Source: a virus. From it: DNA of 60,230 nt. This document shows positions 2,685 to 39,945 of this stretch, piece after piece; within the stretch, counting starts at the first letter, position 1; each line of letters opens with the position of its first letter. The translations under genes were made by a program, and so were the position numbers. The notes below the pieces were generated by a model that was given only the letters and a program-made list of their open reading frames with translations, was not told where the DNA came from and did not search any database. The stretch is taken from positions 1 through 60,230 of the IMG/VR virus record IMGVR_UViG_3300046683_000059; one strand, 5' to 3'.

Positions 2685-2948
2685 ATGGCATTTAAAGTTG
2701 ATGTACATCGTTTAGGCGAACGTCATGGTACTACTGGTATTTATATTCGGGCTACTGCGCCGGATGGTGGATTTGGTACTTATGATATTGCAGAACTAGA
2801 TCGGGCTTCATTGCGTGACTGGTTGCGCTCGCGTGGTGGTGATAACTTGTGGGCTGAAAATACTGTTTTTATTTTATTGGGACATGAACCTTGGGCACCT
2901 AACGAGGGTCAATATGTTCCAGAAGTAGTAGTGGTTAAAAAAGATTAA
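2685..2948 (+). CDS. Hypothetical protein (87 aa)
   Basis: Starts on the base after the previous stop. The sequence looks like a compact alpha/beta domain: beta-rich N-terminus (VHRLGERHGTTGIYIRATA), then a helix (ELDRASLRDWLRSRG) and a closing strand (VPEVVVV). No family is recognised. Its stop is followed by the long RNA hairpin at 2951-3018. Confidence 0.6.
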   Translation: MAFKVDVHRLGERHGTTGIYIRATAPDGGFGTYDIAELDRASLRDWLRSRGGDNLWAENTVFILLGHEPWAPNEGQYVPEVVVVKKD

Positions 2949-2950
2949 TA

Positions 2951-3018
2951 GACAGCGCGGCAGGAATGAAAGCTAACTGTTTTTGCCCCAGTTAGTGAGT
3001 AGTTCTTGCTGCGCCGTC
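2951..3018 (+). other. Long imperfect RNA hairpin between genes
   Basis: The 5' arm GACAGCGCGGCAGGAA (2951-2966) pairs with TTCTTGCTGCGCCGTC (3003-3018) as a 16-pair helix with one A.C mismatch and two G.U pairs. The loop holds a second hairpin, CTAACT/AGTTAG. There is no U-run, so it is not an intrinsic terminator. It lies between a stop and the ribosome site of the next gene and could be an RNase III-type processing or stability element. Confidence 0.6.
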
Positions 3019-3034
3019 ATGGCTAGGAGGATTT

Positions 3035-3229
3035 ATGTTATCAGGTGTAGTAGTTTTAAGTGTATGGGTACTTGGTTTCGTTTTACTTCTATTGGTCCCA
3101 GTGCATAAGCGCTGGAAGGATGATGGTGACTGTAGAGAAGTAGTGTGGCATACTTTAAGAATCCCGACAAATTTAGAGCGTTTTACTTTATGGCGTTCTA
3201 AGATTTATATTAAGGAGGATGTAAAGTGA
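3035..3229 (+). CDS. Small membrane protein, one N-terminal span (64 aa)
   Basis: A strong AGGAGG at 3025-3030 precedes ATG 3035. Residues 3-23 form a hydrophobic span (GVVVLSVWVLGFVLLLLVPV), followed by a charged tail, so a single-pass inner-membrane protein is likely. The stop overlaps the GTG of the next membrane-protein gene, suggesting that the two act together. Role unknown. Confidence 0.6.
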   Translation: MLSGVVVLSVWVLGFVLLLLVPVHKRWKDDGDCREVVWHTLRIPTNLERFTLWRSKIYIKEDVK

Positions 3230-3396
3230 AAGTGAGGCGTGAAGACCGGGTAGACTTCGACCAGACGGCCCTAGCTGTACAGGCGATGAAGGAACGCCAG
3301 AGGCAACGGGCGCGGCAGAGGGTGTTGCTGGTGATCGGTACGGTGTCCCTGCTGGTTGCCGTGCTGATCGCAGTAGGGGTGAAAATATTTTTCTAA
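3226..3396 (+). CDS. Tail-anchored small membrane protein (56 aa)
   Basis: GTG at 3226 overlaps the upstream stop (GTGA) and follows AAGGAGG. Residues 1-33 are strongly charged and arginine rich (KERQRQRARQR). Residues about 34-53 are a hydrophobic C-terminal anchor (LLVIGTVSLLVAVLIAVGV). The gene is clearly GC-rich with CTG/GTG codons, unlike the AT-rich membrane-protein gene it is coupled to. That suggests different ancestry or selection for efficient translation. Function unknown. Confidence 0.6.
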   Translation: MKVRREDRVDFDQTALAVQAMKERQRQRARQRVLLVIGTVSLLVAVLIAVGVKIFF

Positions 3397-3402
3397 AAGG
3401 TG

Positions 3403-3431
3403 TTGACAACCGGAAAAGATAGGCGTAGAGT
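3403..3431 (+). promoter_or_regulatory. sigma70-type promoter
   Basis: A consensus TTGACA (3403-3408), 17-base spacer and TAGAGT (3426-3431; four of six matches). It overlaps the end of the previous gene closely and sits 60 bases before the gene at 3492. The leader contains TAGGGG/CCCCTA arms able to form a hairpin (about 3443-3470). Confidence 0.65.
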
Positions 3432-3491
3432 CAGCACTGAGCTAGGGGAAGACCTTAGCCGCTACCCCTAAACAAACATAAAGGAAAGACA

Positions 3492-3899
3492 ATGGAATTT
3501 CAGATTTTCTCAAAGGTACCAGCACCCCCGCAGAAGCGTGGTCCCGGCTTTGGTGTACGTGAAAGCAAGTACCCGTTCGATAAGCTGGACGTAGACGATG
3601 TACTGGTGATCCCCGGTACGACCAGCAAGAATTTTGGTCCTACTGTTCGTGCAGCGGAGCAACGTCTAAAGGGTTTTTACTTTACTGTCCGCACCGGTCC
3701 CGTAATGGTCAAGGGTGAAGACGGTTCCGATATCGAAGTGGTCCCGGCAGGTGCCGTTGGCGTATGGCGCATTGCCGTGAAGGCTCCGCGTAAGCCGCAG
3801 AAGGCGCGCAGTGCCGAGGATAAGGCCGCTGCGACGGCGAAGGCGAAGGCGACACGCGAAGCGAACAAGGCCGCTAAGCTGGCTGCGAAAGCCGGGTAA
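3492..3899 (+). CDS. Basic, Ala/Lys-tailed hypothetical protein (135 aa)
   Basis: Has its own promoter (3403-3431) and GGAAAG upstream of the ATG. Residues 1-95 look like a folded beta-rich domain. From about residue 96 to the end the chain is a run of Lys, Ala, Arg and Glu (KAPRKPQKARSAEDKAAATA), like histone-tail or DNA-coating proteins. GC-ending codons dominate, in contrast to most neighbours, which fits high expression early in infection. The tail suggests nucleic-acid binding; no family recognised. Confidence 0.65.
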   Translation: MEFQIFSKVPAPPQKRGPGFGVRESKYPFDKLDVDDVLVIPGTTSKNFGPTVRAAEQRLKGFYFTVRTGPVMVKGEDGSDIEVVPAGAVGVWRIAVKAPRKPQKARSAEDKAAATAKAKATREANKAAKLAAKAG

Positions 3900-3931
3900 T
3901 AGATTTAAAGTAAGTAGCCTCAACACAAGGA

Positions 3932-4244
3932 TGATACCAGACTACAGGGATGGGCAAACTAGGGTATGATAGGCGGAAAGTAGAATAGCAAGACGTGACG
4001 AAACGCCTTGTGAGTGGAGACTAAAATTAGCCTCTCATTCTACAAAAAACGGGGCAAATCAGGACACCCTTGCGAGGGAGCTAAGTCCACCGGACGCTGT
4101 AACCGGTTGCAGTAAGAGAGTTTTAAGAGCTGTTGCATGGAAAAGGAGCGTGGCGAGAGCTTTGGCGAATTTCTCGCGGGTACCCTGAAATGACAGGGAC
4201 TAATACCGTCCTAGAACTGGTCCTCATGCAACAGCCTTTAAAAC
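3932..4244 (+). ncRNA. Candidate large structured noncoding RNA
   Basis: About 310 bases without a credible gene fold into many helices by eye. ATACC (3934-3938) pairs with GGTAT (3963-3967). GTAGAAT (3980-3986) pairs with ATTCTAC (4037-4043) around two hairpins (CAAG/CTTG with CGT/ACG at 3989-4010, and one at 4016-4035), forming a three-way junction. Next come CCCT/AGGG (4067-4078), GTCC/GGAC (4085-4095) and CTGTAA/TTGCAG (4097-4112). A 20-pair helix joins 4120-4139 to 4225-4244 (one mismatch, one wobble) and encloses GCGAGA/TCTCGC and CCCTG/CAGGG hairpins. No U-run ends it, so it may be processed from, or be the 5' leader of, the transcript of the gene at 4271. Family unknown. Confidence 0.65.
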
Positions 4245-4270
4245 TAATATTCATTAGGAGATAAAACCCT

Positions 4271-4423
4271 ATGAAGACTGAAATTGAAATTGCTATTAGA
4301 GCATTGCTAGTTAAGATGACCGCAAGTGTAACAACGGAAGAGGCTTTAAAGTTTACACAATCAATGTTAAACTTAGCTCATACAGCCGTTACGTTAGCTG
4401 CATTAAAGGACAAGCAAGAGTAA
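4271..4423 (+). CDS. Small helical hypothetical protein (50 aa)
   Basis: ATG 4271 has AGGAG at 4256-4260, 10 bases upstream and immediately after the structured RNA. The product is a short alpha-helical protein with a heptad-like hydrophobic pattern (IEIAIRALLVKM and LKFTQSMLNLAHTAVTLAAL). It could be expressed from the same transcript as the RNA element and be controlled by it. Function unknown. Confidence 0.6.
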   Translation: MKTEIEIAIRALLVKMTASVTTEEALKFTQSMLNLAHTAVTLAALKDKQE

Positions 4424-4460
4424 GGAGTTTTTAGTACCAAAACACCGGCAAAAAAAGGGC

Positions 4461-4489
4461 TTGACAAGGCTCCCCGGTAGGCGTATACA
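4461..4489 (+). promoter_or_regulatory. sigma70-type promoter for a short transcript
   Basis: TTGACA (4461-4466), 17-base spacer, TATACA (4484-4489), again with GC before the -35. Transcription should start near 4496, and the only thing before the terminator at 4579-4600 is about 100 bases of structured noncoding sequence. Confidence 0.75.
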
Positions 4490-4495
4490 GGCGGA

Positions 4496-4600
4496 TTCCC
4501 CGGCTCAGGATCACTCTCCGATTAAGGCCGTCGAGCGCTCCGTCTCCCCTGCGCTCCGGTCTGTGCAAGTCAAAGCACAACCCTTAGCCGGGTTTTTTTT
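4496..4600 (+). ncRNA. Candidate small RNA or attenuator leader
   Basis: A transcript from the promoter at 4461-4489 to an intrinsic terminator would be about 105 nt. It holds GAGCGC/GCGCTC (4533-4538 with 4551-4556), TGTGC/GCACA (4562-4566 with 4575-4579), and the terminator hairpin AACCC/GGGTT (4579-4583 with 4590-4594) running into eight Ts (4593-4600). No open frame with a ribosome site lies inside. It may be a free regulatory RNA, or a leader that conditionally terminates before the gene at 4662. Confidence 0.65.
4579..4600 (+). terminator. Intrinsic terminator of the short RNA
   Basis: AACCC, a TTAGCC loop and GGGTT are followed directly by a T-run to 4600. The stem is short (5 pairs), but the U-tract is long. 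Confidence 0.7.
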
Positions 4601-4661
4601 ACTAAGTTTCTAAACTAGACTCACCTAACATAATCCTAGACAACCAAAAGAGAGAAATAAA

Positions 4662-4832
4662 ATGAGCAATGCGATGACGGAATTTAAATCCTATACCGAT
4701 GCAGACAAAGCCGCACTTCGTGAGTTGACCGCTTACGCGAAAGAGAAGACCGGCAAAGACGTGAAGACCGGGGATATGATCTGTGCATTGACACCCGGCT
4801 TAGAGACTCCGAAAGAGTTGATGGGCATCTAA
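4662..4832 (+). CDS. Small hypothetical protein (56 aa)
   Basis: ATG 4662 is preceded by AGAGA (4651-4655). It encodes a compact, mostly helical protein (TDADKAALRELTAYAKEKTG) with GC-leaning codons. The gene is bracketed by terminators at 4579-4600 and 4881-4914, so it is its own small unit, transcribed only by readthrough of the upstream terminator or from an unseen promoter. Function unknown. Confidence 0.6.
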   Translation: MSNAMTEFKSYTDADKAALRELTAYAKEKTGKDVKTGDMICALTPGLETPKELMGI

Positions 4833-4880
4833 TCTAAACCATAACTAAAGGTAGGTGATCCTAAATCTGTTCCAAAGCGA

Positions 4881-4914
4881 AGCCCCGGCGCTTAAACCGG
4901 GGCTATTTTATTTT
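4881..4914 (+). terminator. Intrinsic terminator directly before an SD site
   Basis: AGCCCCGG (4881-4888) pairs with CCGGGGCT (4897-4904), with an 8-base loop, followed by ATTTTATTTT. The GGAGGG ribosome site of the exported-protein gene begins at once (4915), with no room for a promoter. Confidence 0.8.
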
Positions 4915-4926
4915 GGAGGGTTGCAA

Positions 4927-6606
4927 ATGAAAATGAAGAGAGTGTTAGCGGGGGGCTTACTACTGCTTGCTAGTAGTTTAGCTTTCGCAGTACACAACGA
5001 AGGGGTATTAGAGTTAGATGGTAACGCTGTTAATGATCCTGCGGTACCGGGGATCGACTGGCAAGATGTTTTTCTTACTCCCGCTGTAGGTCAGAGTTTT
5101 ATTAATGACCTTTTTAATTCAAGTGCTGATAATGCTTTTATCGGTGGCGGGTCCAAAGATGTACGAGATATTCCTTTATGGGGACAGACTTTAACCGGGT
5201 CACCAGACAAGGATGATTTAGAACACGCAATGGCTGCTTTATTTACCGTTAATGGTGATGAAGTAGTTTATTTTGCTGCGGATCGTGATAGCAATAACGG
5301 AGACAGTGCGATTGGTTTCTGGTTCTTTCGTTCAGCAGTAAAAGTAAATGGTAGTGGTGGGTTTGATGGAGTCCATACCGTAGGGGACATTTTAGTTACG
5401 TCCGATTTTCTACAGGGTGGCGGCGCTTCTGTAATCAATGTGTTTAAGTGGGTGGGTGGTGCTAATCCATTATCACTTTTGGCCCATTCTGAAATTAAGA
5501 ATGGCGTACCGATTGGTGGAACTGTTGATCCTGTAACGGGATTGTTCTGTATTAGCAGCGATATTGCTTGTGCAGTAACAAACAAAGCCGCTACACCGGC
5601 ACCTTGGTCTTATACGTTCAAAGGATCGGCTCCCCCTAATACATTCCCACAAGGTACATTCTTTGAAGGTGGAGTTAATCTAACGCAGCTTTTAGGTGGG
5701 TCTGAGTGCTTTAGTAACTTTCTTGTAATGACCCGTACTTCTGCGAGTACAACGGCACAGTTAAAAGACTTTGTTTTAGGACCGTTTAAGAACTGTTCTA
5801 TCGCAGTGTCCAAGACTTGTAACGTAACTCGTTTAACCACTGCCTCAGACAATACGTCTCTTCTGTACTCTGTGGACTATTCTGGAACGGTAACAAATAC
5901 GTCTGATGGTTCTTTACCGATTGGTACGATTATCACTGTGCGGGATGATGTTGGAACACCGGACCCGGCGACTAGTGACGACCAAAGTCAGTCATTTACT
6001 TTAGCTGCGCCATTAGCTAAGAATGGAACACAAGCTTTTACTGGTAGTTTCTTTAGCAATGACAATCCGCCACATAATACTGTCTATGCAACAGCGGCAT
6101 TTAGTGGCAATTCACTAACAGCTAACTTTAGTATTGACTGTTCTCCGCTTTCCTTAAGTCCAGCTTTATCAGTGACCAAGGTTTGCGGTACACCGGCTGG
6201 TGCGCCGGGAGTAGAGTTAGTCCTTAGTGGTGGTAAATTAGTTACACAAGTAAATGTTTCTGGTACTGTATGCAATACTAGCACTACGGCAGGTTTAAAT
6301 CTATCGGTAACTGTAGCCGATGACGCAGTAGGTATTGCTAATCCGCCCGATCCAACGCAATTGTTTAATGGTACGTTAGTACAAGGTGCTGTTGGTACAC
6401 CGGGGCGTTGCGCTGATTACACGTACAGCTATCAGCCTACAGCAGGCGACGGTAACACGACACCGGCAAGCGTGGCAATGTTTAGCGATACGGTAACGGC
6501 AATGGGTAGCAGTCCTGCGCTGCCAGCGGCACAACAGCCTACAGCTACGGCAACGGCACACTGTGCAGTATGTCCATGCAATGGGTTGAATTGTCCTACT
6601 CCGTAA
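4927..6606 (+). CDS. Sec-exported DUF11-like beta-domain protein (559 aa)
   Basis: The true start is ATG 4927, with GGAGGG at 4915-4920; an open frame extends further upstream but runs through the terminator. Residues 1-21 form a signal peptide: basic MKMKR, a hydrophobic LAGGLLLLASSLAFA core and an AFA cleavage site. No lipobox is evident. The rest is Thr/Ser/Val rich, like beta-sandwich surface domains. Two repeats begin with AVSKTCNV-type and SVTKVCG-type strands (about residues 297-430 and 430-550), as in DUF11-like modules. Paired cysteines suggest disulfides, and the tail is CAVCPCNGLNC. Exported phage proteins often alter the host envelope (superinfection exclusion or conversion); that role is inference. 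Confidence 0.7.
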   Translation: MKMKRVLAGGLLLLASSLAFAVHNEGVLELDGNAVNDPAVPGIDWQDVFLTPAVGQSFINDLFNSSADNAFIGGGSKDVRDIPLWGQTLTGSPDKDDLEHAMAALFTVNGDEVVYFAADRDSNNGDSAIGFWFFRSAVKVNGSGGFDGVHTVGDILVTSDFLQGGGASVINVFKWVGGANPLSLLAHSEIKNGVPIGGTVDPVTGLFCISSDIACAVTNKAATPAPWSYTFKGSAPPNTFPQGTFFEGGVNLTQLLGGSECFSNFLVMTRTSASTTAQLKDFVLGPFKNCSIAVSKTCNVTRLTTASDNTSLLYSVDYSGTVTNTSDGSLPIGTIITVRDDVGTPDPATSDDQSQSFTLAAPLAKNGTQAFTGSFFSNDNPPHNTVYATAAFSGNSLTANFSIDCSPLSLSPALSVTKVCGTPAGAPGVELVLSGGKLVTQVNVSGTVCNTSTTAGLNLSVTVADDAVGIANPPDPTQLFNGTLVQGAVGTPGRCADYTYSYQPTAGDGNTTPASVAMFSDTVTAMGSSPALPAAQQPTATATAHCAVCPCNGLNCPTP

Positions 6607-14474: not shown

Positions 14475-15211
14475 TGAAACGTACTCTGCTTTACTCTTTA
14501 ATCTTAGCTGCAACGGCAACAAGCGCTGCTCCTGTAGTTATTATCAATGGAACTTGTACCGTCACGCCTTCTAGTGATATTACGGTAAAAGCGGATACGG
14601 GCAATATTATAGTGACTGGTACTTTTAGCAATGCTTGTGGTAATGTTGTTACGCCACCCCCTGTAGAGCCACCACCGGTAGAAATACCCACTGCCTGTAC
14701 GGAAGGGAGTCCAGTAGGCGAATTAGGTAAATTAGGCTATGGTAGACAATGCAGCGGAAGCATTCGTACTTATAATACTAGTATGAATCCTAAACCAAAA
14801 TGGGATAATACTTATGAAGGATTAATGGCTGGTCCTTGGCCCGGTAATAAAGCTCAATTTGGATGGGCTTTATCTATGTTTGTTAAGTCAATGGGCTTTG
14901 GATCATTTAAATTTAATACAGGACAGGTAGAGGCAGGAGTAACATTTCAAAGTAATACTAGTTATGGTGTTCAAGGAACGATAAGTGTTAGTACAATACC
15001 GGGAGATTTTGAAGACACAACATCAGTTTGTAAAGGATCAGCAGTTAGTATATCAAGTAAAGCTGGAACTAGAGCAACATGTAAACTACAATTGAATACA
15101 GATTATTTCTTAAATATATCCAATGCAAATTACTTCCCACCGCATGAAACTATGTGTGAAGGTGGTAACCAATGTAATATAGCTTGGACTGTCTATAGCT
15201 ACGGAAACTAA
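14474..15211 (+). CDS. Second Sec-exported protein (245 aa)
   Basis: Start at ATG 14474. MKRTLLYSLILAATATSA (residues 1-18) is a signal peptide with a plausible cleavage near TSA-AP. The mature part begins with a short beta segment, then a proline linker (TPPPVEPPPVEIPTAC). A larger domain with at least six cysteines and many Gly, Ser, Thr and Asn follows, typical of a periplasmic or surface protein. It is translationally coupled inside a replication operon, an odd location for an exported protein. It is unrelated in sequence to the exported protein at 4927 as far as I can see. Role unknown; envelope modification is a guess. Confidence 0.65.
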   Translation: MKRTLLYSLILAATATSAAPVVIINGTCTVTPSSDITVKADTGNIIVTGTFSNACGNVVTPPPVEPPPVEIPTACTEGSPVGELGKLGYGRQCSGSIRTYNTSMNPKPKWDNTYEGLMAGPWPGNKAQFGWALSMFVKSMGFGSFKFNTGQVEAGVTFQSNTSYGVQGTISVSTIPGDFEDTTSVCKGSAVSISSKAGTRATCKLQLNTDYFLNISNANYFPPHETMCEGGNQCNIAWTVYSYGN

Positions 15212-15222
15212 AGGATAGTGTT

Positions 15223-15612
15223 ATGCCCACCCCAAAAGTAGAAGATGTAATTAACAAGTTTATAGAACTTAGGGAAAAGCGTTCTGAAATTAAAAAGAAG
15301 TATGAAGAAAAGGATTTGGTTTTGAAAGACGCTATGGAGAAAATTGAAGTATTCCTCTCTCGATACTTAGTTAAAGAGGGACTTCAAAGTGCTAATATTG
15401 GACTCTATACAGCTTACTTTGCCAAAGAGTATAAAGTGGGTTGTGCAGATTGGCCCAATTTTTGGTTGTGGATGGCTACCAATAACCGTTGTGACATGAC
15501 GGAAAAACGTGTAGCCGTTGGTGTTATTAAAGACTATTTGGAAGAAAAGAAGGAATTGCCGCCGTTTGTCAATTTAACCGTTGAAAAAGTTGTCCGAGTG
15601 AGGAGAGTATAA
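15223..15612 (+). CDS. Hypothetical phage protein (129 aa)
   Basis: Begins 11 bases after the exported protein. Residues 5-50 form a charged coiled coil (FIELREKRSEIKKKYEEKD). A conserved-looking part with WPNFWLWMATNNR follows, reminiscent of a family found near replication genes of several podoviruses, but I cannot name it. The stop overlaps the next ATG. Confidence 0.6.
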   Translation: MPTPKVEDVINKFIELREKRSEIKKKYEEKDLVLKDAMEKIEVFLSRYLVKEGLQSANIGLYTAYFAKEYKVGCADWPNFWLWMATNNRCDMTEKRVAVGVIKDYLEEKKELPPFVNLTVEKVVRVRRV

Positions 15613-15920
15613 TGGCTAGCAAAAAGAAACCGTCAAAGAGAATCCATGCAGAAGGTCCAGAAGTAGGCGCGGTTATAGACCGGGCTATAGAGCGTATGGG
15701 AAAGGAACAAGAAACATCAAAGAATCTTGAACCGGGCTTGCACGTTCGCCGGTATAGAGTGGCACCAGAAGGCAAAGTACATTACTCCGTTGTTAGAGTA
15801 ATCGGAGTGGATCGTGGTCATGGTATGTTTATTAAAGTCTATGTTCTCTGTGAAGAATGTAACGTTAAACTTACCAATTACGAAATTGAAACCAGTGACT
15901 TCCAGAGGATAGGTGAATGA
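15612..15920 (+). CDS. Hypothetical protein with CxxC (102 aa)
   Basis: TAATG start. The basic N-terminus (ASKKKPSKR) precedes a beta-rich domain; CEEC near residue 82 could bind metal with other ligands. Overlaps the next gene as ATGA. Unknown function. Confidence 0.6.
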   Translation: MASKKKPSKRIHAEGPEVGAVIDRAIERMGKEQETSKNLEPGLHVRRYRVAPEGKVHYSVVRVIGVDRGHGMFIKVYVLCEECNVKLTNYEIETSDFQRIGE

Positions 15921-16351
15921 GTACTAAACCTGTTAAACCAGCAGCACCTAAAGAAAACATGACTACTTACCTTCTTAATATGAAAGATGGTACAAGGCAA
16001 AAGATTACTTGTCCTACAGAATGGACTGTTACATTTGGTCCATTAACACCGGGTACTAAGGATTCAAACAACGGACATTTTGGGATCGCACTTAGAATTA
16101 GGGATGGACAACGCCAGAAGGCAGTCTTTACCGGTGTTGAATCATTCCGAGATATGTCAATGGCGATTGAAACGGAAGTAACTAAGACTAAAGAAGAAAC
16201 GTTTTATCGGGATGAAGATGGTGAAAAGAAACAGGTTATTGTCCAAGGTGCTATTAAAGAGTGGACTAATCCTGATGCACCGGGAGTACGAGAAGTACCA
16301 ACAAGTAACATGCCTAAAGTCTTAAATGCACTGGAGGTGCAACGTGGATAA
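15917..16351 (+). CDS. Hypothetical protein (144 aa)
   Basis: ATGA start. A Lys/Pro-rich N-terminus leads into a beta-rich domain (YLLNMKDGTRQKI, HFGIALRIRDG). It is coded between the CxxC protein and a gp49-family protein, in a set of small genes ahead of the probable ssDNA-binding protein. No family recognised. Confidence 0.6.
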   Translation: MSTKPVKPAAPKENMTTYLLNMKDGTRQKITCPTEWTVTFGPLTPGTKDSNNGHFGIALRIRDGQRQKAVFTGVESFRDMSMAIETEVTKTKEETFYRDEDGEKKQVIVQGAIKEWTNPDAPGVREVPTSNMPKVLNALEVQRG

Positions 16352-16652
16352 TGACCAGTTAGAACAAGCTATACAAGACAAGGGTTTAACCGCGCCACGT
16401 ATTACTGTAGATCATATTAAGTCTATAGTACACTCTGTATATTATCATGTTCCACCGGCTACCACCCTTACACTTTGCGTTTTAACACTTAAAAATGGTT
16501 TTACGGTAGTAGGCCAAAGTGCTTGCGCTCATGCAGCTAATTTTGATCGTGAATTAGGTGAACGGCTTGCACGGGATGATGCCGAAAATAAGATTTGGGT
16601 ACTGGAGGGTTACTTACTCCGTGATCGTCTTTTCAATAGCAGGAGTGTTTAA
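16344..16652 (+). CDS. Phage gp49-family (Phage_gp49_66) protein (102 aa)
   Basis: Starts at GTG 16344, with GGAGG seven bases upstream. LTLKNGFTVVGQSACAHAANFD (around residues 50-70), GERLARDDAENKIW and LEGYLL are the hallmark blocks of the Phage_gp49_66 family. These are small conserved phage proteins of unknown function, often near recombination or replication genes. Length agrees with the family. Confidence 0.8.
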   Translation: MDNDQLEQAIQDKGLTAPRITVDHIKSIVHSVYYHVPPATTLTLCVLTLKNGFTVVGQSACAHAANFDRELGERLARDDAENKIWVLEGYLLRDRLFNSRSV

Positions 16653-16653
16653 C

Positions 16654-17712
16654 ATGTCACAAGAAATTAGTTTGTTTGACCAACCCACACAGTTGCCGGC
16701 ATATTTGAGTGCCTTTGATAGTAGTCTTGGTACTGATATGGCTCTAGGTGGTTTCTCTGGAAACCGTATTGGTTTGAAAGGTAGTCGGTTCCGTTTGTTA
16801 GTTAATGGTCAAGAAGAAGCTATTCTTGAAACGTTTCATCTGGACATTATCATTGTTGGTGCATCGCCGGGTGTAGGCCGCATTTTCTTTGGTGGTAACT
16901 ATGATCCTGATGAAAAAGCGCATCCGCTTTGCTATAGTGCCGATGGCATAACACCGGGAGCAGACGTAATTAATCCTCAGTCTGTTAAGTGTGCTATTTG
17001 TCCACAGAATGAGAAGGGTAGTAAAATTACACAAGAGGGTGTTAAAACCAAGGCGTGTAATTACTTTAAACGTCTGGTAGTTGCACTGGCAGACGGTAGC
17101 GATCCTGAACATCGTTTGTTTAGACTGGACGCAAAAGCAATGACCATTTTTGGTGAAGGATTGCCAGCGCAGAATAAGTTTACTCTTAATGAGTATTCTA
17201 AGAAATTTTCTACGCGGGGGCTTGATCCAGCTAAATTTGTTACTCGTTTGTCTTTTGATCCAGAGAGTTCTGTACCTAAATTGTACTTCTCTCCTCTTCG
17301 TGTTATTACTGAAGATGAAGTGCCGTGGGTGATGGACTTAGTACATAGTGAAGATACTAAGATTAATGCTACTATTACCGCTATTACTGATGCTTCAGAC
17401 GCAGAAGCGGAGGCACCAGCGGCGGCGCAGCCAGCCCCGGCAGTCAAATCGAACGCTAGCGCCCCTGCCGCGACCGTAGCGCCCCGCGCAGCCCCCGGCC
17501 TTACGCCTAAGATCGTGACCACCGGCAAGCCTGCTGCGCCTGCTCCTGTAGCCGCGCCGGTAATTGTAAAGACAGCACCACTAGCAGCAGTTAGACCCGC
17601 AACACCGGCACCGGCAGTAGCGGCACCAGTACAAGAGATTGGCGCAGCGGATGATGTAGACTTAAATGATTTTTTGAAGAATCTAGAGCTAGATGAAAGT
17701 AGGAGTGCATAA
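16654..17712 (+). CDS. Probable single-stranded DNA-binding protein (352 aa)
   Basis: ATG 16654 has AGGAG 10 bases upstream. Residues 1-250 form a domain with a likely zinc site (HPLCYS, then KCAICPQ and a later ACNYF), and beta-strand patterns follow. Residues about 250-335 are a long Ala/Pro/Val linker from a GC-rich island. The end is acidic and hydrophobic (DDVDLNDFLKNLELDE), like the partner-binding tails of SSB, T7 gp2.5 and T4 gp32. With its position between gp49 and the primase this suggests an ssDNA-binding protein; direct family recognition is weak. Confidence 0.55.
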   Translation: MSQEISLFDQPTQLPAYLSAFDSSLGTDMALGGFSGNRIGLKGSRFRLLVNGQEEAILETFHLDIIIVGASPGVGRIFFGGNYDPDEKAHPLCYSADGITPGADVINPQSVKCAICPQNEKGSKITQEGVKTKACNYFKRLVVALADGSDPEHRLFRLDAKAMTIFGEGLPAQNKFTLNEYSKKFSTRGLDPAKFVTRLSFDPESSVPKLYFSPLRVITEDEVPWVMDLVHSEDTKINATITAITDASDAEAEAPAAAQPAPAVKSNASAPAATVAPRAAPGLTPKIVTTGKPAAPAPVAAPVIVKTAPLAAVRPATPAPAVAAPVQEIGAADDVDLNDFLKNLELDESRSA

Positions 17713-18062
17713 TGAGTGAAGTATATGACTTGCAACAGAAGTTGCAGGAGCTGGCTGCAATGTCTAATGTTTCGCTCAAGAACTTTAAATCATTGCACCA
17801 TGTTTCTTATGTTACTCTGTATCAATTTATAAAAGAACCAAGTCTTGCAAGGCCGCGCACTCTAACGAGTGTGCGGTTAATTTGTGAATTTTTATCTTCC
17901 GCACTTAAAGCCCGGTTACTACCACTACCAAGAGATAACAATGTTGATGTTAGTCATGCCATAAATGTATTGTATGAACGTTGGTGGGCTAATGGAAAGA
18001 AGTTTCCTGAGCGGCTAGAAACAAACGGAGTAGAACCTACAGTAAGTAATCAGGGAACTTAA
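17712..18062 (+). CDS. Hypothetical HTH-like protein (116 aa)
   Basis: TAATG start overlapping the previous gene. VSLKNFKSLHHVSYVTLYQF (about residues 20-39) resembles a helix-turn-helix of the XRE kind; a second helical part follows. It ends 13 bases before the primase. It might be a replication regulator, but this is weak. Confidence 0.55.
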   Translation: MSEVYDLQQKLQELAAMSNVSLKNFKSLHHVSYVTLYQFIKEPSLARPRTLTSVRLICEFLSSALKARLLPLPRDNNVDVSHAINVLYERWWANGKKFPERLETNGVEPTVSNQGT

Positions 18063-18075
18063 TAGGAGAAAGATA

Positions 18076-20976
18076 ATGCTGGACTTTCTCAGGACCGTCT
18101 TACCTAAAGACGGGCCTTTCTGTATTGCTTACCGAAACAAGGAAAGAAAGGGATTTTTTCACCGGGTAGGTAAAGATCATTTAGCGGCTGCTAAACTATC
18201 AGCATGGGGCGCAATAAGAGGATGGGACGTTTATTTCTGTATCTCTAGTCTTAAAGCGCCTGAATGGGTAGATGCTGCCGGAAAACCACATAAACGTAAA
18301 AAAGAGAATTGTGCTAAAACGGGGGTTCTAGTTCTTGATGTGGATATCGGAGCTAGTGCAAGCAAATATCATACGAAAGATGAAGCACTAGAAGCATTAA
18401 CTAAATTTACAACAGCACTTGACTTTAAACCACCGCTTATTGTAGATAGCGGATATGGTTTGCATGTCTATTGGTTAATTAAGAACCCAATGGACTCAAA
18501 AAAATGGGAAATATTAGCAGACTACTTTAAAAAGATAGCGATTGTACTTGATCCGAAATTAACAGCAGACACTACTCGCATTGCAGATTCAGCGGGAGTT
18601 CTACGTGTACCGGGAACTAGAAACTATAGAAAGACAGATGACCCACAAGGAGTAAAACTATTACAATTTACAGAGGATGGTGATACTGCATTAGACATAT
18701 CTAAAAAACTATTCGCAAAAGGACGTGAACTTAATATTCCTGTTACTAGACCAAGAGCAAAACAATTAATACCTGCTGCTAGTTCTAAGCTCGCTAGTGA
18801 TTTAGGCTTAGATGTTCCGCATAATATAGATGCAATAATGCAAAAATGCAACTGGATGCGGAGATATGCAGTAGACATTAAAATAGCGTCTGAAAGTGAA
18901 TGGTATGCAGTTCTTGGACTTCTAAAACACTGTTATCATCCAAAAAAGACAGCGCGAGAATTAGCACACTATTTTTCGCGGGGGCATCCCGGTTATAGTG
19001 AAGAGGAAACAGATCGCAAATTTGAACAAGTAAGACTAGCACAATCTGGTCCATCCATGTGTGCTAGATTTGGTAAAATTGTACCAGAACGTTGTGTGGG
19101 TTGTAAGTTTGCTTCTATGGTAACTTCACCAGCGCAACTAGACCAAGTAGATTTACCAGATGATAGACCCATACTGATAGAAAAACCTTATAAGGATATT
19201 AATGGTCATATATCTAAGTTTGTAGCAGAAGCACTACCTATGCCACAACCTTATTTTAGAGGTAAATCAGGTGGCATCTATATGAACTTAGATGGTCATA
19301 GTGTAAATCCTAATCAAGATGATACTAATACTGTTAGGAAAATTTACGAGTATGATATTCTGCCGCTTGCGAGGTTACAAAACGAAGATACTGGAGAAGA
19401 AGAAATAGAGATAATACTATACTTACCAAAAGATGGACAGAAAATAATCAGGGTTCCTATTGAGTATACTACAGAACCTAAGCGATTTGCAACGTACCTT
19501 GCTGCTAGGGGTGTATTACTAAAACAACATGAGATTTTGCCTCTTATAAACTACATGATTGATTATATTAGACTGATACAAAAGACAAGCGAAGCAAGGG
19601 GAATCTATACTCGTTTTGGCTGGCGGCATCCACAAACACCTGATCCTATATTTGTTCTAGGTGATGGAGTAATTAAAGCAGATGGTACGTTTATTCCCGG
19701 TGGTACGGCTAATTGGTTACAAGAACTAAAACAGTTTGCTTCTGCTACAGGAAACATTACTGAATGGAGAAAAGCATTTGAAATTAATTTACAATATTCA
19801 ATACCAGCCTACCAGTTTACTATGATGCTAGGGTTTGCCTCTCCATTATTTGCTTTAACACCATATAGTGGAATGATGTTTAATATCCTTGGTGCTGGTG
19901 GTATCGGTAAATCTACTGCATTGAAATTTATGACCAGTATTTGGGGTAAGCCTACATATACTCATATTCTTCAAAAGGATAACAGTATACCTGTTTTTAA
20001 TAAGATCGGATATCTTAACTCGCTACCGGTAGCTTATGATGAAATTACTAATTTGCCTGCGGACCAAACTGCCGACTTGGCTTATAGCATCACTGAGGGA
20101 AGAGGTAAAGAAAGAGCTGACCGCTCAGGTAACACTAAAATTAATTTCATCAAATGGTCCACCATACTTGTATCGTGCTCAAATTTATCCCTCTACGAAA
20201 AAATCGGACTTGCAAAAAAAGGCAATACTGCTCCTGCTTATAGAATTTTTGAAGCAAAAATTGAAGAAACCGTTAAAGAGGAAAACAGGCCAAAAATAGA
20301 AGAAGCTATACGTATATTAGATAGTAATTACGGAGTTGCAGGCAGAATGTTTATGCAGTATACAGTATCACATAATACAGAGATTATAGAAAAACTAGTA
20401 AAAGAAGAAGAGAGAATAAGTGTAGAGTTCGGATTAAAAAATGTAGAACGTTTTTGGGGAGGTATGTTTGCTGCTGTAAGTGTCAGCATGGATATCTGCC
20501 ATGAGCTAGGTATACATAGTTTTGAAAAAGAAAAATTATTACAATGGGCGCATAAAGAAATAACTAGCACTAGGGGTAATCTTGTAGAATCCCAAGGTGA
20601 TGCACTCAGTATTTTTACTGACTATCTTAATAGTAATCTACATGCAACTATATACGTAATAGATGGACGTGTTACCGCACATGGTATAACTAATACACCC
20701 AATAAAGAACTACATATACGATTTGAGAAAAAGAATGGTAAATTTACATCTGGTTATATATCTTCGCAAGCTTTCAAAAGATACTGTATAAATAACAAAA
20801 TAGAATATGGATGGTTTAAAGAAGAACTAAAACAACTAGACATGATAATAGCGGGTATAACATCTAAACGTTTAGGCGCAGGAACAGACTTTTTTACTTC
20901 GCCAATTAACTGCTTAAAGTTAAATTTAGAGTCACCACACTTTGATCAGAGTATTATACAGGAACCAACACAATGA
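18076..20976 (+). CDS. AEP primase fused to DUF927-type helicase (966 aa)
   Basis: AGGAG precedes the ATG. The N-terminal 230 residues are an archaeo-eukaryotic primase: VLDVDIG (about 90-96) gives the D-x-D, VDSGYGLHVYWL (about 122-133) the G-x-H-x-Y and RIADSAGVLRVPGTRN the third block. Residues about 255-355 form a linker domain with histidines and cysteines, including CVGC. The C-terminal half is a DUF927-like ATPase: GAGGIGKST Walker A (about 610-618) and PVAYDEIT Walker B (about 651-658). Such fusions start DNA synthesis and unwind DNA in phages and plasmids. It is the largest replication gene and supplies priming here. Confidence 0.85.
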   Translation: MLDFLRTVLPKDGPFCIAYRNKERKGFFHRVGKDHLAAAKLSAWGAIRGWDVYFCISSLKAPEWVDAAGKPHKRKKENCAKTGVLVLDVDIGASASKYHTKDEALEALTKFTTALDFKPPLIVDSGYGLHVYWLIKNPMDSKKWEILADYFKKIAIVLDPKLTADTTRIADSAGVLRVPGTRNYRKTDDPQGVKLLQFTEDGDTALDISKKLFAKGRELNIPVTRPRAKQLIPAASSKLASDLGLDVPHNIDAIMQKCNWMRRYAVDIKIASESEWYAVLGLLKHCYHPKKTARELAHYFSRGHPGYSEEETDRKFEQVRLAQSGPSMCARFGKIVPERCVGCKFASMVTSPAQLDQVDLPDDRPILIEKPYKDINGHISKFVAEALPMPQPYFRGKSGGIYMNLDGHSVNPNQDDTNTVRKIYEYDILPLARLQNEDTGEEEIEIILYLPKDGQKIIRVPIEYTTEPKRFATYLAARGVLLKQHEILPLINYMIDYIRLIQKTSEARGIYTRFGWRHPQTPDPIFVLGDGVIKADGTFIPGGTANWLQELKQFASATGNITEWRKAFEINLQYSIPAYQFTMMLGFASPLFALTPYSGMMFNILGAGGIGKSTALKFMTSIWGKPTYTHILQKDNSIPVFNKIGYLNSLPVAYDEITNLPADQTADLAYSITEGRGKERADRSGNTKINFIKWSTILVSCSNLSLYEKIGLAKKGNTAPAYRIFEAKIEETVKEENRPKIEEAIRILDSNYGVAGRMFMQYTVSHNTEIIEKLVKEEERISVEFGLKNVERFWGGMFAAVSVSMDICHELGIHSFEKEKLLQWAHKEITSTRGNLVESQGDALSIFTDYLNSNLHATIYVIDGRVTAHGITNTPNKELHIRFEKKNGKFTSGYISSQAFKRYCINNKIEYGWFKEELKQLDMIIAGITSKRLGAGTDFFTSPINCLKLNLESPHFDQSIIQEPTQ

Positions 20977-21191
20977 GATACGATATAACACCAACGGAAA
21001 GACTAGGACCGGGTAGTCCTTTATCAGATACAGGATTCTTAAATGATATGCCGCGAATGTTGGTACAGATTAAACGACCAGCGGAAGAGGTTAAAGACTT
21101 ATTAATAGCAATGAAACTTATTGCAGAATATCTAGATGGGATTAAAGATAGAAAAGCGTTGCTTGAAGCAAGAACACACATAAACTACTAA
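20973..21191 (+). CDS. Small hypothetical protein (72 aa)
   Basis: ATGA overlap with the primase. A proline/glycine-rich start and a helical C-terminus (EEVKDLLIAMKLIAEYLDGI). It ends eight bases before the tRNA gene. Function unknown. Confidence 0.6.
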   Translation: MRYDITPTERLGPGSPLSDTGFLNDMPRMLVQIKRPAEEVKDLLIAMKLIAEYLDGIKDRKALLEARTHINY

Positions 21192-21198
21192 AAAACTA

Positions 21199-21283
21199 GC
21201 CTCTATGGTGGAATTGGTAGACACAAGGGACTTAAAATCCCTCGGATAAAACCGTGCCGGTTCGACTCCGGCTGGAGGCACCA
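21199..21283 (+). tRNA. tRNA-Leu (UAA anticodon)
   Basis: An 85-base cloverleaf with the CCA encoded (21281-21283). Acceptor arms GCCTCTA and TGGAGGC pair (one G.U). The anticodon stem AGGGA/TCCCT holds loop CTTAAAA (anticodon TAA at 21233-21235). A class II variable arm CGG/CCG and a T arm GCCGG/CCGGC follow. It closely resembles bacterial tRNA-Leu(UAA). The AT-rich phage genes use TTA often, so this tRNA probably offsets a host poor in it. It sits inside the early operon between two genes. Confidence 0.97.
21274..21278 (+). promoter_or_regulatory. Shine-Dalgarno inside the tRNA acceptor stem
   Basis: GGAGG in the 3' acceptor strand lies seven bases before ATG 21286, ideal spacing, and no other site is available. 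Folding and 3' maturation of the tRNA would hide or remove it, so tRNA production and translation of the next gene should compete. Confidence 0.65.
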
Positions 21284-21285
21284 CT

Positions 21286-21792
21286 ATGAAACCAACAATA
21301 ACTCCTATACAAACAAACTATAAAGGACATTACTTTAGATCAAGACTAGAAGCTAGATGGGCTGTGTTTTTTAGAGAACTAAATATTCCATTTTTATACG
21401 AAAAAGATGCATTTAAATTAGGTACATTAAGATGCTATTTACCAGATTTTTGGTTAGAACTACCAGAAGGAATATGTGACGAATGTAATACTTCCGGTTA
21501 TTGGTTTGAAGTTAAAGGGGGTAGAACGTGTACTAGTGACATGGAGAAATGTCAACAATTAGCTATAAAAACAAGACATTCTTCTATTATAGTAGTTGGT
21601 GATCCTGTAGAATTTAACTACCGTAAATTTTCTTGGTATGATGGTGCTTGTTCTAGTTTCAATTTTAATAGCGAATGGGTAGACGGCAAGTGTATAGGAC
21701 CAGTACATAGATCATTGCTATTTAGACACTGGAATGTTTCGCCTGTTGAATACGACTATGCAGCAAAAACAGCCCGTAGTTACCGTTTTTAA
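21286..21792 (+). CDS. PD-(D/E)XK-type endonuclease-like protein (168 aa)
   Basis: Starts two bases after the tRNA CCA. YKGHYFRSRLEARWAVFF (about residues 12-29) with the E of RLEARW, then YLPDFWLEL (about 51-59) and WFEVKGG (about 72-78), reproduces the E...PD...E-x-K nuclease core seen in many phage endonuclease-like proteins. CDEC (about 64-67) could bind metal. A DNA-processing role is expected; the substrate is not known. Confidence 0.75.
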   Translation: MKPTITPIQTNYKGHYFRSRLEARWAVFFRELNIPFLYEKDAFKLGTLRCYLPDFWLELPEGICDECNTSGYWFEVKGGRTCTSDMEKCQQLAIKTRHSSIIVVGDPVEFNYRKFSWYDGACSSFNFNSEWVDGKCIGPVHRSLLFRHWNVSPVEYDYAAKTARSYRF

Positions 21793-22576: not shown

Positions 22577-22915
22577 ATGGCATATGATCCTCGTCCAGAA
22601 GTAGATGAATCTTCTAAGTTTGACATTACCAACGAAATTGATGCTGAACTTATGAAAGATTTAGACGTAATAAAAGAAAAACATGGTTTTAGTAGTATGA
22701 TACTTATAGCCACTACATGTACAGAAGACAAATCTAGTTCTAAACTTGCATTTATAGAAAATCGTAGAGAACCATTCTTTTTACTGGAATGTGCAGTCTC
22801 TATGCAAGAGTACTATTTAGAAAGAGAAATTAAAGTTTACAAGCAACGTATAGAAAAAGTACATGGTATAATGGCTCAAATTGAAAAAGTGTTTACCCAC
22901 CCTAAAGATAATTAA
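22577..22915 (+). CDS. Hypothetical protein, last gene of the early operon (112 aa)
   Basis: AGGAG at 22566-22570 precedes ATG 22577. It is mainly alpha/beta, with a C-terminal amphipathic helix (EYYLEREIKVYKQRIEKV). No family recognised. Its stop overlaps the stop of the giant leftward gene by 4 bases, so both transcripts run into each other with no terminator between. Confidence 0.6.
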   Translation: MAYDPRPEVDESSKFDITNEIDAELMKDLDVIKEKHGFSSMILIATTCTEDKSSSKLAFIENRREPFFLLECAVSMQEYYLEREIKVYKQRIEKVHGIMAQIEKVFTHPKDN

Positions 22916-25900
22916 TGTTCTAATCTAGCTGCTTGTTTAGAGAAGTTTTCCTGAGTTTTAGCCCATTGACTTTGAAGCGCAGCAAGTCTAGAAGTTTTAG
23001 CTGTAGTACCAAGTAAGTTATTATCGGTAATAGCCCTTCTATCCTTGCTGTGTTCTTTTGACGCTTTTACAAATTCTTTATCTAAATCTGCTTTAGTTTG
23101 AATATCTGAAGGAACAGTTTTACCTTGCTTTTCTAAAAAGTCTTTTTCCTTTTTAGCTTGTTCTAAAGTTTGTTTACTACGATAGTATTCTTTACCTGCT
23201 GCATATCTTAGATCATGGTTAAATAGTCCAGCAAAAATAGTAGCTTGACTGTTATCTACATCTAATCCCGCCGTTTCCATATCTTCTTTTTCAACCCCCT
23301 TAAATAAAAGCGAAATAGTACCAGGATCGTAAGACGACATTAAATGTCTTAATGTTTCTGGATACATATCTAAACCGGTATACTCACGTAAAGCGCGTGC
23401 CATAGTTGTATACATCTTACCAGTAGTAGCGCGTGCAGCTTCAGAAGCATAACCCTGAGTATATGCCGGTTTTTCATGTATTTCTGATCCAAAAGCAGTC
23501 TGATTTAGGAAAGACTCGTAACCGGGTCTTGCGACCGATGGCACCAGCCCCCCGGCCAGATCGGCGGCGATCGTTCCACTATCTTCCCCCTCTTTTGTCT
23601 CTATAGGATGTAGCGGACTAACGTTTTCCGCTAGTAAATTCTTTAATGTCCTGCCTGCACTCTGTATTGTAGTATCTCCTGATGCAAGCCTAGTAGCTAA
23701 CATAGCTACACCCCACGACAAGCGCGGCATACCTAAACCTATTGGTAATTTAAGTGGATCGTCACCACCGAACGGCAGTATAACATTCTTTGCTAAATCA
23801 TCATCACTTATCTTTTTAATCTTATCATCACCTAGATTTGTCTTTAATGCAGTATATGCACTTGCTGTAGCAAGACCAAACACTCCCATAGCCATTGCAG
23901 CACGTTTCGCATCTAATTGACCTTTTTCATTTTTAAGTGTCGAAAGCATTACATCTAAACTGGTAACACCAACACGCGCAAACGCAAACCAACTATTTAA
24001 AACACGGCTACCTTGAGAAGTCTGCTGATAATCTAATAGACGTTTAGCATAAAAAGCTGCGTCTATAGGTTTCATACCTGAATCTTTCGCTGAAATAAAT
24101 GATGCTACGCGACCCGCCATCATAGACCCGGTAGCAATAGCATCTTGTAGTTCTGCTAAATACTTAGTTATACGCCTAGGATTAAGTGGATTTAACTTAG
24201 CTTTTTCTAACTCTTCACGTAGTCCCTGAATCGTTTTTGCATTATTAAAACTATCACGGAAGTTAAAACCACCACCAGCTTTATCTAACTGATAAAGTTG
24301 TCCAAGATAAGAATCTGGATTTGCTAATGCATATTTTTCTACATCAGCAAATGTTTTGACTTTTAATCCACCCTCTAATTTAAAAGCAGAAGCCCATGCA
24401 CCAAACGGACCACCAAACTTCATGTAATTAGCAATATAACCCGGTATTAAGTCTGTTCTACCTTGAGACACCATCATACTTGGTATATACAAACCATCGC
24501 GTACAACGGAATTAACTAATGCAAACGGCAATGAAAAAGCCGTATGAACACGACCATATGCAGCAGTAGCTTTACCTACCATTGCACTAGTATCACCTAA
24601 TGCTACTGGATGTTGAGATTCTTTAATAGCTTGTAATTGTGCTGATTCTTCAGGCAAAGTTATCACATATCTATATTTACCTTCATTATGAATAACTGCA
24701 TTACGTCCTGCGGCAACTCGTTTCATAGCACCAAGTTTACGCCCACCTGCTAAAGCATCCTTAGCCATATCATCCATATCAAAACGATGAATAGTTGCAC
24801 CCAATTTCTGATCTGGATTTTTAGCTGCTCTCCATAAAGCTCCGGTAGCTTCATTATCTGCTACATCTTTGGATGAGAACAATAACTTATTAAAAATTCT
24901 ATGTATAGGATCATCAGATAACTTTGGTTGTTCACCATAAAGAGATTTAGTAAATGATCCTAATGGACTACCAAATACATTATTGGGAACACGTATATCT
25001 TCATCAGCCCAATCTGACTTAGGCATGTAATACCGGTTCCCGTAGGCTTTCTGTTGCCGTATATCTGCTTCTGATAAAGAGTTAGCCCTACGTTGATTTT
25101 CAATAATTCTTTCTCGTAGTTTATCAAATGATTTATTAAACTCTTCTCCTATGTCATTGCTGAAGCCTTCTTTGTTTACATTCGATATGATTTGATGCGC
25201 TACTGCATTAGTTATGCCGGATACTGGTTCGACGTGAGACTCTTGCTTTGCTCCCGGTGCATGGACGATCTTTGTTAGTTCCCGCATATAATCGCCAGTA
25301 AACTTATCATCACGTACTTCTTGTAATAGAGGAGCGCGTTTTTTCTCCGCTTCTGGACTTAACTTAATGTTTTCTAACTCATATCGTTTATTAGATTCAA
25401 GCGCATCTTTCGCTCTAATCCACTGTGAAAATCTACCCATAAATTCATCTTCAGTCATATTATGTTTACCAGACATTACTCTTGCAGCATCTAAAATTGG
25501 TGCAATGTAATTAGAGTGATCGGTAGACTGTTCAAAAATCTGTCTTCCACGTAAGACAGTAAAATATTTAAACATATCTTCAGTAGGATCAACTTTGTTT
25601 CCCTGTCGAGCCATATACTCATTGTAGTATTGTAATGGTTGTATTGAATTTACACCCTTCTGTATTATCTTTTGCCATAAACTGGGCTTCAGTGTATCTG
25701 ACGCATCTTTCCATGTCTTAAATGATTGAACTATACCGGGCTTTTTCTTAGTCCAATCTTCTGCCGCTTCTGCTGCTTCCGCCGCTGTTGTTATAGTAGG
25801 TCCACGGCGAGCCATTAACTTACCTACTGTTTCTTTAGGAGCTTTCGCAGCATACAATCTCCGCATAGTACTATCTTCTGGATGATACTTTTCCAGAGTA

Positions 25901-28900
25901 TCTAAAAGCTTATTACGGAATGCTGCTACGTCTGTTAAATAGTCTTTAGTACCTAAATCTGCTTCCCATGTCTTTTTACCAAATAGTTTATCTAAAAACT
26001 TCATAAACGCATCTACTATCTTACCAAAGACAGTTGGATTACGTTGTGCTAACTTATCTAGAAATTCTTTATTGGTAAACGCTTCACCAGTAGCATTTGC
26101 TACTAACTCTTCTGTAGCTCCCTCTTCAGACATTGTATCATATTCTCTTGCACCTTGCAAGCGTTTTGTATATTCCTTTATCTTACCTTGACGTACAACT
26201 TCGTCTCTAAGTTCCTTATATAATGCAGGATTATCTTTTTTTAATTGATGCAAAAATTCATGCGATGCTATTGCTGTAGCTGGACTTGTCGAATTTTCAT
26301 TAACATATAAATTACCATCATGGAAATTAGCACCTTCAAAGTCAAACACTTTCTCTGCTAAGTTTCTAAAAACAATAATCCTATGACCCGTAGCTTCTCC
26401 CCACCGTTGTACAACAGACTGCAATTCAGGAGATAGCGACTTATCATCTACAGTTTCAAACTTCATCTTATCTATATCTTCAGCCTTGAAGTTTTTAGCT
26501 CCAAGCATATTTTTTACATGATCGGTTAATTTATCTGATATGACAGTTGATCTAGCCATTAAGCCGGGGCGTATGCCCGATACCTTTTCTCCACCTTCTC
26601 TACCAGTAGTATCACGTTCTGCAAATGCTGGCTGTTCTTTTCCTTTAATAGCTTCTCGCATTTCTGGAGTAATATCAAAAGAATGAACAGTAATATCTCC
26701 ACCTTTTAATTCATTATGTATAAATCCCTCTACATGAGATTCAGGCATTGTATAAGACAAACCATTACTTTTATCCTTAACACTTACTATATTTCCTTTA
26801 CTACCTTTACTTACACCCTTTACTTCAAAATCATCTCTACTTCTTGTTTTGGTTTCACTTGTTTCAACTTTCCCACCCCATTGTTTTATATAATCAGCAA
26901 CAGCTTTTGGACCAATTTTATCATATAGATTACGATGGAATTGCCCACCAAGGTCTAAGTTTTCACCACTAAAATTAGCTCCATGTTCAGCAGCCATTAC
27001 TTTTTCGGTTAGAGATTTGCCTATTACGTTTTCTAATTTTACTCCATTTGGAATAACACTCTTTAATGGTGAAAATGTTACAATTCCATCTTTATTTACA
27101 TGAAGTGCTATAAGATCATTATTCTTCATACGAACATCGACAATTCTTTCTCCCGCTGGTGTTATACGTACACTTATACTGTGTACTTTTCGGCTAAGCC
27201 CATATCTATGAGTCTGTTGTTCTCCAGTAGTCCAACCAATTTTATCTTGCCCATTCTTAATAGCTTCACTGAGCATATGTTTAATACCCAGTAAGAAGTA
27301 ATCAGACGGATTTGTAAACGGAGCATCTGGTGGTCTTTTTGTACCAGTACCTATAAAATCTCTTTCCGCTACTCGCTCTATTGCTTTCTGTGGCGATCTA
27401 GCAATTATTTTTTCTTTAAAAGTTCCATTATTATCATATACTCTATAAGACTGTATACCATCTTCATCTTTCGGACCATCTTCTTTAGCAGTCCAATCTT
27501 TTATTTTTTCCTTTAGTATGCCTTTATAATCACTAAGTGCTTTCGCCCATTCATTCTGTATTTCATCGGCAAAAAGCATCTTCTTACCATCTCTAGTAAG
27601 TCTTTCATTTGTTCTTAGATGAAGTATAGCATTAACAACCCCTTTAAAATGGGTTGAACGAAATATTTTATTCTTGGCAGCACTTGTTGGTATAGTTAAA
27701 AATACTTCTTTATGGTTTTTCCCACCGGGAGTAGACAAATAAGTACTATCACCTGTTGGTGGATACTCTAACCCGCGAGTTTCATTAAGATCATTCAGAG
27801 CAACAGTTATAGCATCATCTTCACTACCGCCTTCTTCACTTTCAGCTTTAAGGTCACCATGATTATCCCGAACTTCCCAAACATCAGCATATCTTCCGTA
27901 CTTAGTATACCACCCTCTAGGTAAATCTGTAATTTTCGGCATATCACCGCGAGTTTCAGCAGTAATTTTTAAATCATGTGCCGCTAGAAAATCTCTTACT
28001 GCCCACCGAGATATTGTCGGCGCTACAGTAGGTTGGTCTTTTCCAGTTCCTTTAATAACAGGACCGCTTTCTCTATCTAACCATTGGTCAATGCCTAACC
28101 ATTCACGCTCAGACTTTTTAATATCACCCCTTCTTTCGGCATCGTTTAACCATCTCTTCCAAGCATTAGCCGTAAGAGAGTTAAATTTAAGATCGGAGTT
28201 TTCCAGTGTCTTAGCAAGCCTAGAGTAAAAACCACCCTTCCGTTCTGGCTCTAGTTTAGCACTTAGTTTACCTACTGGTTCGACGGATTTAGTCTTGGCC
28301 GCCGCCCCGGCCTTACCTTTTTTTGGTACTGTCTTTTTTGGTGCCGGTGGTTGTTTCTTTAATACATCCTTTCTAGGTGCTTTCTTAATATCAGCAGCCT
28401 TAGCTTGTGATTTCTTTCTAGCTTTAGTGGCATCATTCTTTTTCTTTTGAGCCTTAGCTTCTAATTCCTTAGCAAGCGCAGCTTGCTTATCAGCTATCTT
28501 TTTCTCAGCCAATGTCTGTTTAAGTACATTACCTTTCTTTTCTTCTTTCCTTTTCTTTAAATCAGCCTTAACTTGATCTGCATGTTCTTTCGCTAACTGA
28601 GCCTCATGCTCTGCCTGTTGTTGATCTTTTAAATTCTTTCTATATTCTACTAAATCAGATTCCCTAGCCGCTGATTCTTCTTCAGCAGTTAGTTCACTAT
28701 CTACTTTCGGCAACTGCTTTTCATACTCTGCTTGACGTTGTTTTGCTTCTTCGTCTTCAGCTTCTTGTTTAGCTTTAGCTTCAGCCTCCTTTCTTAGAAC
28801 ATCTTTTCGTTCAGCCTCCTTTCTAGCTTTTTCAGCTAATAGTCTATTGGTCTTCTCCATGACCCTTCTAAATTTAACTATTGGATGCTCATCCCGTTTC

Positions 28901-32106: not shown

Positions 32107-32114
32107 AGTAATTC

Positions 32115-39937: not shown

Positions 39938-39945
39938 GGCTATGC

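Follow-up and report, generated by a model that had tools for sequence, protein, structure and literature searches.

The window analysed here is the whole of virus record IMGVR_UViG_3300046683_000059 (60,230 bases). A crude gene map places almost every gene in the first 22 kb or so of the window on the + strand, and most of those from there to about 58.5 kb on the − strand. The + side includes DNA polymerase, helicase, primase and exonuclease and the − side portal and terminase, so the term "early region" used for this locus in the first-pass annotation is a fair one. A sigma70-type promoter at 3403-3431 is presumed to drive a transcript covering gene 3492, the spacer behind it and gene 4271; no terminator-like site was seen on the + strand between 3403 and 4579. 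The motif TTGACA-N13-GGCGTA was rejected as a phage-wide promoter, its count being at chance level apart from two good sites. No gap in the first 30 kb of the crude gene map is larger than the spacer, which has no credible gene over its 371 bp and takes in the gene-free stretch of about 310 bases reported earlier. The features of the locus are as follows.

3403-3431, + strand: sigma70-type promoter, TTGACA-17-TAGAGT, matching the consensus at 10 of 12 positions
3492-3899, + strand: upstream gene, 135 aa with a basic C-terminus (ORF translation)
3900-4270, + strand: untranslated intergenic spacer, 371 bp, in which the two phages compared below share no conserved ORF
3925-3978, + strand: 5′ edge of the core, hypervariable, with differences from the relative at 8 of 54 positions
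3979-4088, either strand: invariant centre of the core (three-way junction, GGAC/GTCC and CCCT/AGGG hairpin), 0 of 110 positions differing
3980-4043, either strand: three-way junction, closed by 3980-3986/4037-4043, with arms 3989-3996/4003-4010 and 4017-4024/4027-4034
4062-4088, either strand: compound hairpin, GGAC 4062-4065/GTCC 4085-4088 enclosing CCCT 4067-4070/AGGG 4075-4078
4089-4107, either strand: 5-bp hairpin with the 9-nt loop ACGCTGTAA at 4094-4102, the loop identical in the relative
4119-4245, + strand: indel hairpin module, a 21-bp terminal inverted repeat with 85 nt and two hairpins inside, absent from the relative
4137-4193, + strand: 18-codon frame with its start codon within the stem, absent from the relative and not conserved
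4256-4260, + strand: AGGAG ribosome-binding site of gene 4271, identical in the relative
4271-4423, + strand: downstream gene, 50 aa, an identical protein being found only in the relative

The only relative found was IMGVR_UViG_3300046782_000096, which is syntenic with the window across much of the genome and about 99% identical in the flanking genes. Divergence is 1.0% over 2944-3899 and 0.8% over 4921-6606, nearly all of it at third codon positions. Gene 3492 differs by six changes, all at third positions, and its protein is identical. Within the spacer the comparison falls into three regimes: the variable edge (8/54 differences), the centre without a single difference, and a highly divergent part from 4089 onwards. 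Positions 4107-4248 are swapped for 16 unrelated bases in the relative, so the big helix and its two hairpins constitute a separate indel module. The relative keeps the core, lacks the module and has gene 4271 intact. The 20-pair domain is therefore separable and dispensable and, being an indel, cannot be essential to a conserved RNA. The first-pass annotation had described one multi-branched RNA of about 310 nt, and this description fails, since the relative lacks that domain entirely. The spacer is probably a composite of two pieces unrelated to each other, the core, 3925-4108, and the module, 4119-4245. With two sequences and no outgroup, gain of the module here and its loss in the relative are equally possible.

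The helix coordinates given earlier, those of GTAGAAT 3980-3986/ATTCTAC 4037-4043 and of the long stem, were confirmed by reading the sequence. The stem that encloses the two hairpins, previously counted as 20 pairs, has arms at 4119-4139 and 4225-4245 and spans 21 positions, namely 19 Watson-Crick pairs, one G.U and one A.C. No inverted repeat in the 60-kb window is better than this one of 21 nt, which only 3 of 500 dinucleotide shuffles matched. The module as a whole folds with z -4.5 on the + strand and -5.7 on the − strand, and ends 11 nt upstream of the ribosome-binding site of gene 4271. The view that the pairing exceeds chance is thus borne out for the inverted repeat, but not for the segment as a whole: on the + strand 3932-4244 folded no better than shuffled sequence (z -1.6; 7 of 100 shuffles folded equally well). 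The 18-codon frame is present and reads MEKERGESFGEFLAGTLK, but it is absent, along with the module, from the relative, and no protein frame conserved across the region was found. One module arm, GUUUUAAGAGCUG, resembles the layout of a type II CRISPR repeat:anti-repeat (lower stem, GA bulge, upper stem), which can serve as a lead only. That likeness was treated as coincidence, since the "bulge" consists of the G.U and A.C positions and Rfam gave no tracrRNA match. The inner arm has some likeness to certain insertion-sequence ends; no search supports either resemblance.

No conserved helix could be demonstrated in the 5′ edge of the core (3925-3978), and a candidate conserved hairpin at 3934-3938/3963-3967 was discarded because the relative's version was not more stable than random substitutions. 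The three-way junction gave z -3.0 on the + strand and -4.9 on the − strand, for a region chosen after the fact; each of its two arms contains one A.C on the + strand, which is G.U on the − strand. The compound hairpin at 4062-4088 is found in the − strand minimum-energy fold and is invariant between the two phages. A long-range helix on the − strand, 4064-4070/3961-3967, was rejected because by eye it is broken in the relative. The core without the insert gave z -0.1 on the + strand in both phages, and 3979-4108 gave -1.5 (+) and -1.9 (−).

The hairpin at 4089-4107 differs from its counterpart in the relative by an exchange of A-T for G-C at 4089-4107 and of G-C for C-G at 4093-4103, with all five pairs kept. 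All four changes sit on these two pairs. The observed choice of bases was the only one as stable among 81, and random placement of four changes did equally well in 1.2% of trials. The hairpin has been kept in a neighbourhood whose coding sequence diverges by about 1%, almost entirely at third positions. Covariation, proposed as a check of the structure, is thus seen at two compensated pairs of one 5-bp hairpin but nowhere else. As judged from the two sequences, this hairpin is the sole evolutionary support for pairing, and it would suit either strand, and RNA as well as DNA.

The spacer scored below the gathering threshold for the Rfam 15 families, among them group I and II introns, tmRNA, RNase P, riboswitches, GOLLD and ROOL; the only gathering-level match in the whole window was the tRNA at 21199. 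At E<=10 on both strands, the region and the relative's uninterrupted core gave chance-level matches only. ARAGORN detected no tmRNA and only a tRNA-Leu at 21199-21283. The reverse transcriptase profile PF00078, used for retrons and DGRs, had no match in the 60-kb record, and the control genomes were positive. The earlier statement that the locus fits no known class therefore stands. Blastn against phages and plasmids returned no match for the region. The upstream protein 3492 had no homologue in phages; viral contigs yielded a single close relative and a single distant, partial match that lacks the RNA. Neither blastn nor the covariance model R1 detected an RNA homologue in 80 loci (1.1 Mb) of DNA polymerase relatives, the next best of which had 41% identity; the best weak match among these loci was L050, at E 0.16. 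When viral and genome contigs were scanned for exact patterns, the known relative was the only true match, and the others were chance-like. These homologue searches are low in power because a model built from two near-identical sequences finds close kin alone.

The minimum-energy fold of the + strand lacks the GTAGAAT/ATTCTAC junction, and that of the − strand forms it. When 802 windows of 120 nt were scanned, 3961-4080 on the − strand was the only spacer stretch in the lowest 1% (0.7%); 4501-4620 on the + strand, outside the spacer, ranked fourth. Promoter-like sites on the + strand were ranked by a weight-matrix scan of both strands, and those at 3403 and 4461 ranked 10 and 27 among 120,398 start positions; the best − strand site within 3980-4700 ranked 522 of 120,398. 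We kept + as the transcribed strand, with moderate confidence, because strong promoter-like sites lie on it and none of note lies nearby on the − strand.

We tentatively read the spacer, with somewhat less than even confidence, as an untranslated part of an early polycistronic mRNA that carries cis-acting structure and runs from the 3403-3431 promoter past gene 3492 and on into gene 4271. The two cistrons would be set apart by the folded core and the long stem, which might shield the 5′ end of the message for gene 4271 or leave it exposed. A leader role for gene 4271, which had been suggested earlier, is possible and comes close to this reading. Host RNase III could cut at the 21-bp stem, which makes about two helical turns, much as it cuts T7 early messages between genes: a double-stranded stem of about two turns lies between co-directional genes whose co-transcription is itself presumed. 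We infer + strand co-transcription, RNase III cutting and an effect on gene 4271; the cutting is predicted from the length of the stem alone, by analogy, and the relative manages without a stem. Against a structured mRNA, the + strand fold of the core and of the whole segment is ordinary, and the junction fits the − strand better.

The best precedent is T7, in which host RNase III cuts the early polycistronic mRNA at five sites (PMC4858673). The locus resembles the T7 R1.1 site (PMC4858673) in that a stem-loop would lie in a phage early mRNA, here in a spacer between early genes and ahead of a ribosome-binding site. It differs in that R1.1 is a hairpin substrate of 60 nt (PMC4858673), whereas the present module has a 21-bp stem closed by a branched loop of 85 nt, is absent in the relative, and would be cut only by prediction.

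The helices could also be chance pairings or a structure at the DNA level, such as a replication or recombination site, with no RNA function. Ordinary energies over most of the segment, and a comparison of two sequences only, are consistent with that. The stem is, however, the genome's best inverted repeat, the hairpin at 4089-4107 is compensated, no direct repeats (iterons) occur in the spacer, and the skew minimum lies near 58 kb, away from it; we regard chance or DNA-level structure as unlikely. The core might instead be a genus-specific stand-alone or cis-acting RNA, either a regulatory leader or a ligand- or protein-binding element, with the 9-nt loop ACGCUGUAA as its contact site. The loop and the centre are identical in both phages while the edges vary, and the stem of the loop covaries. 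In both phages, by eye, CUGUA of the loop is complementary to UACAG at 3943-3947, and in a stand-alone core RNA the two may pair as a pseudoknot. Yet further relatives were not found, the + strand fold energy of the core is ordinary, and an identical block of 110 nt is by our estimate expected about 1/3 of the time at 1% divergence and about 1/100 at 4%. We regard such a genus-specific RNA as unlikely; a stand-alone RNA in the core has little positive support. It is very doubtful that the core (3925-4108) represents a new structured RNA specific to this phage genus, in which the fixed junction and the 9-nt loop on its covarying stem would form a binding site, the edges would evolve fast and the module would be an add-on domain.

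If the core were transcribed from the − strand, giving an RNA antisense to the spacer, this would explain why both junction arms have G.U there in place of A.C and why the − strand fold forms the junction; 3961-4080 on that strand falls within the lowest 0.7% of the phage's z-scores, and the core reaches z -3.4 (-2.2 in the relative). However, all neighbouring genes are on the + strand, 3979-4108 on the − strand has a z of merely -1.9, and the ranking of − strand promoter-like sites in 3980-4700 offers nothing better than the 522nd site. We hold an antisense core to be improbable. For the module, entry into the phage as a small non-autonomous MITE-like element would be compatible with the mRNA reading that we prefer for the core. 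Its 127 bp, its 21-bp terminal inverted repeats and its absence from the relative agree with such an origin. The multiple copies and target-site duplication of a MITE are absent: the window has the module once and the relative not at all, the inner arms spaced 70-100 nt apart were found in no other viral contig, and the relative has 16 unrelated bases where a clean empty site would be expected, with no recognisable duplication. Deletion in the relative is equally possible. A MITE-like module is distinctly unlikely. The enterobacterial MITE-like repeat RU-1, also 127 bp (PMC2759123), is likewise small, intergenic and of inverted-repeat character; the equal length is coincidental. Unlike a repeat family, the module is single copy and shows no evidence of mobility, and no sequence relation to RU-1 is claimed.

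Should the core prove functional, the non-coding regions of phages, which are poorly charted, would gain an orphan structured element, and the stem, present in one and absent from the other of two nearly identical phages, would offer a natural experiment on the role of an intercistronic hairpin; if it does not, separate elements in one gap mimic a single ornate RNA when one genome is read. The ornate RNAs GOLLD and ROOL are larger than the spacer RNA and widely distributed. The spacer shares with these phage RNAs a non-coding, multi-helix character and a location in phage DNA (PMC12286853), but differs in having no Rfam match at E<=10.

Several other features of the window were recorded. The late side contains further large gene-free gaps, at 39938-40325, 32107-32379 and 57197-57445. 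A single − strand ORF of 3064 aa occupies 22912-32106, in a stretch strongly divergent from the relative. The tRNA-Leu (taa) at 21199-21287 sits where 99% identity with the relative (14873-21287) drops to about 75-81%, possibly a recombination boundary. The 56-aa gene at 4662-4832 on the + strand has 16 of its 171 bases changed in the relative, 13 of them at third positions, against about 1% for its neighbours, which may reflect recombination at this place or a history of its own. ORF 4855-6606 (+), of at most 583 aa, lies among the early genes, has no Pfam or PHROGs match and a signal-peptide-like start near 4927, and by its sequence looks like an exported or surface protein.

Downstream of gene 4271, a + strand element at 4461-4603 begins with the near-consensus promoter TTGACA-17-TATACA (4461-4489), whose flanking sequence is similar (96% over 25 bases, E 0.2) to a promoter annotated in Pseudomonas phage UFV-P2. 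The element had no convincing Rfam match, and its 17-base pattern was found in no other viral contig. The promoter is followed by a closed branched fold of about 105 nt (z -5.0; 0 of 200 shuffles as stable), and a stem with eight T at 4579-4602, an intrinsic terminator, ends the element. Positions 4496-4602 are identical in the relative. The element is a probable discrete phage small RNA gene and, by its anatomy, a better candidate than the spacer.
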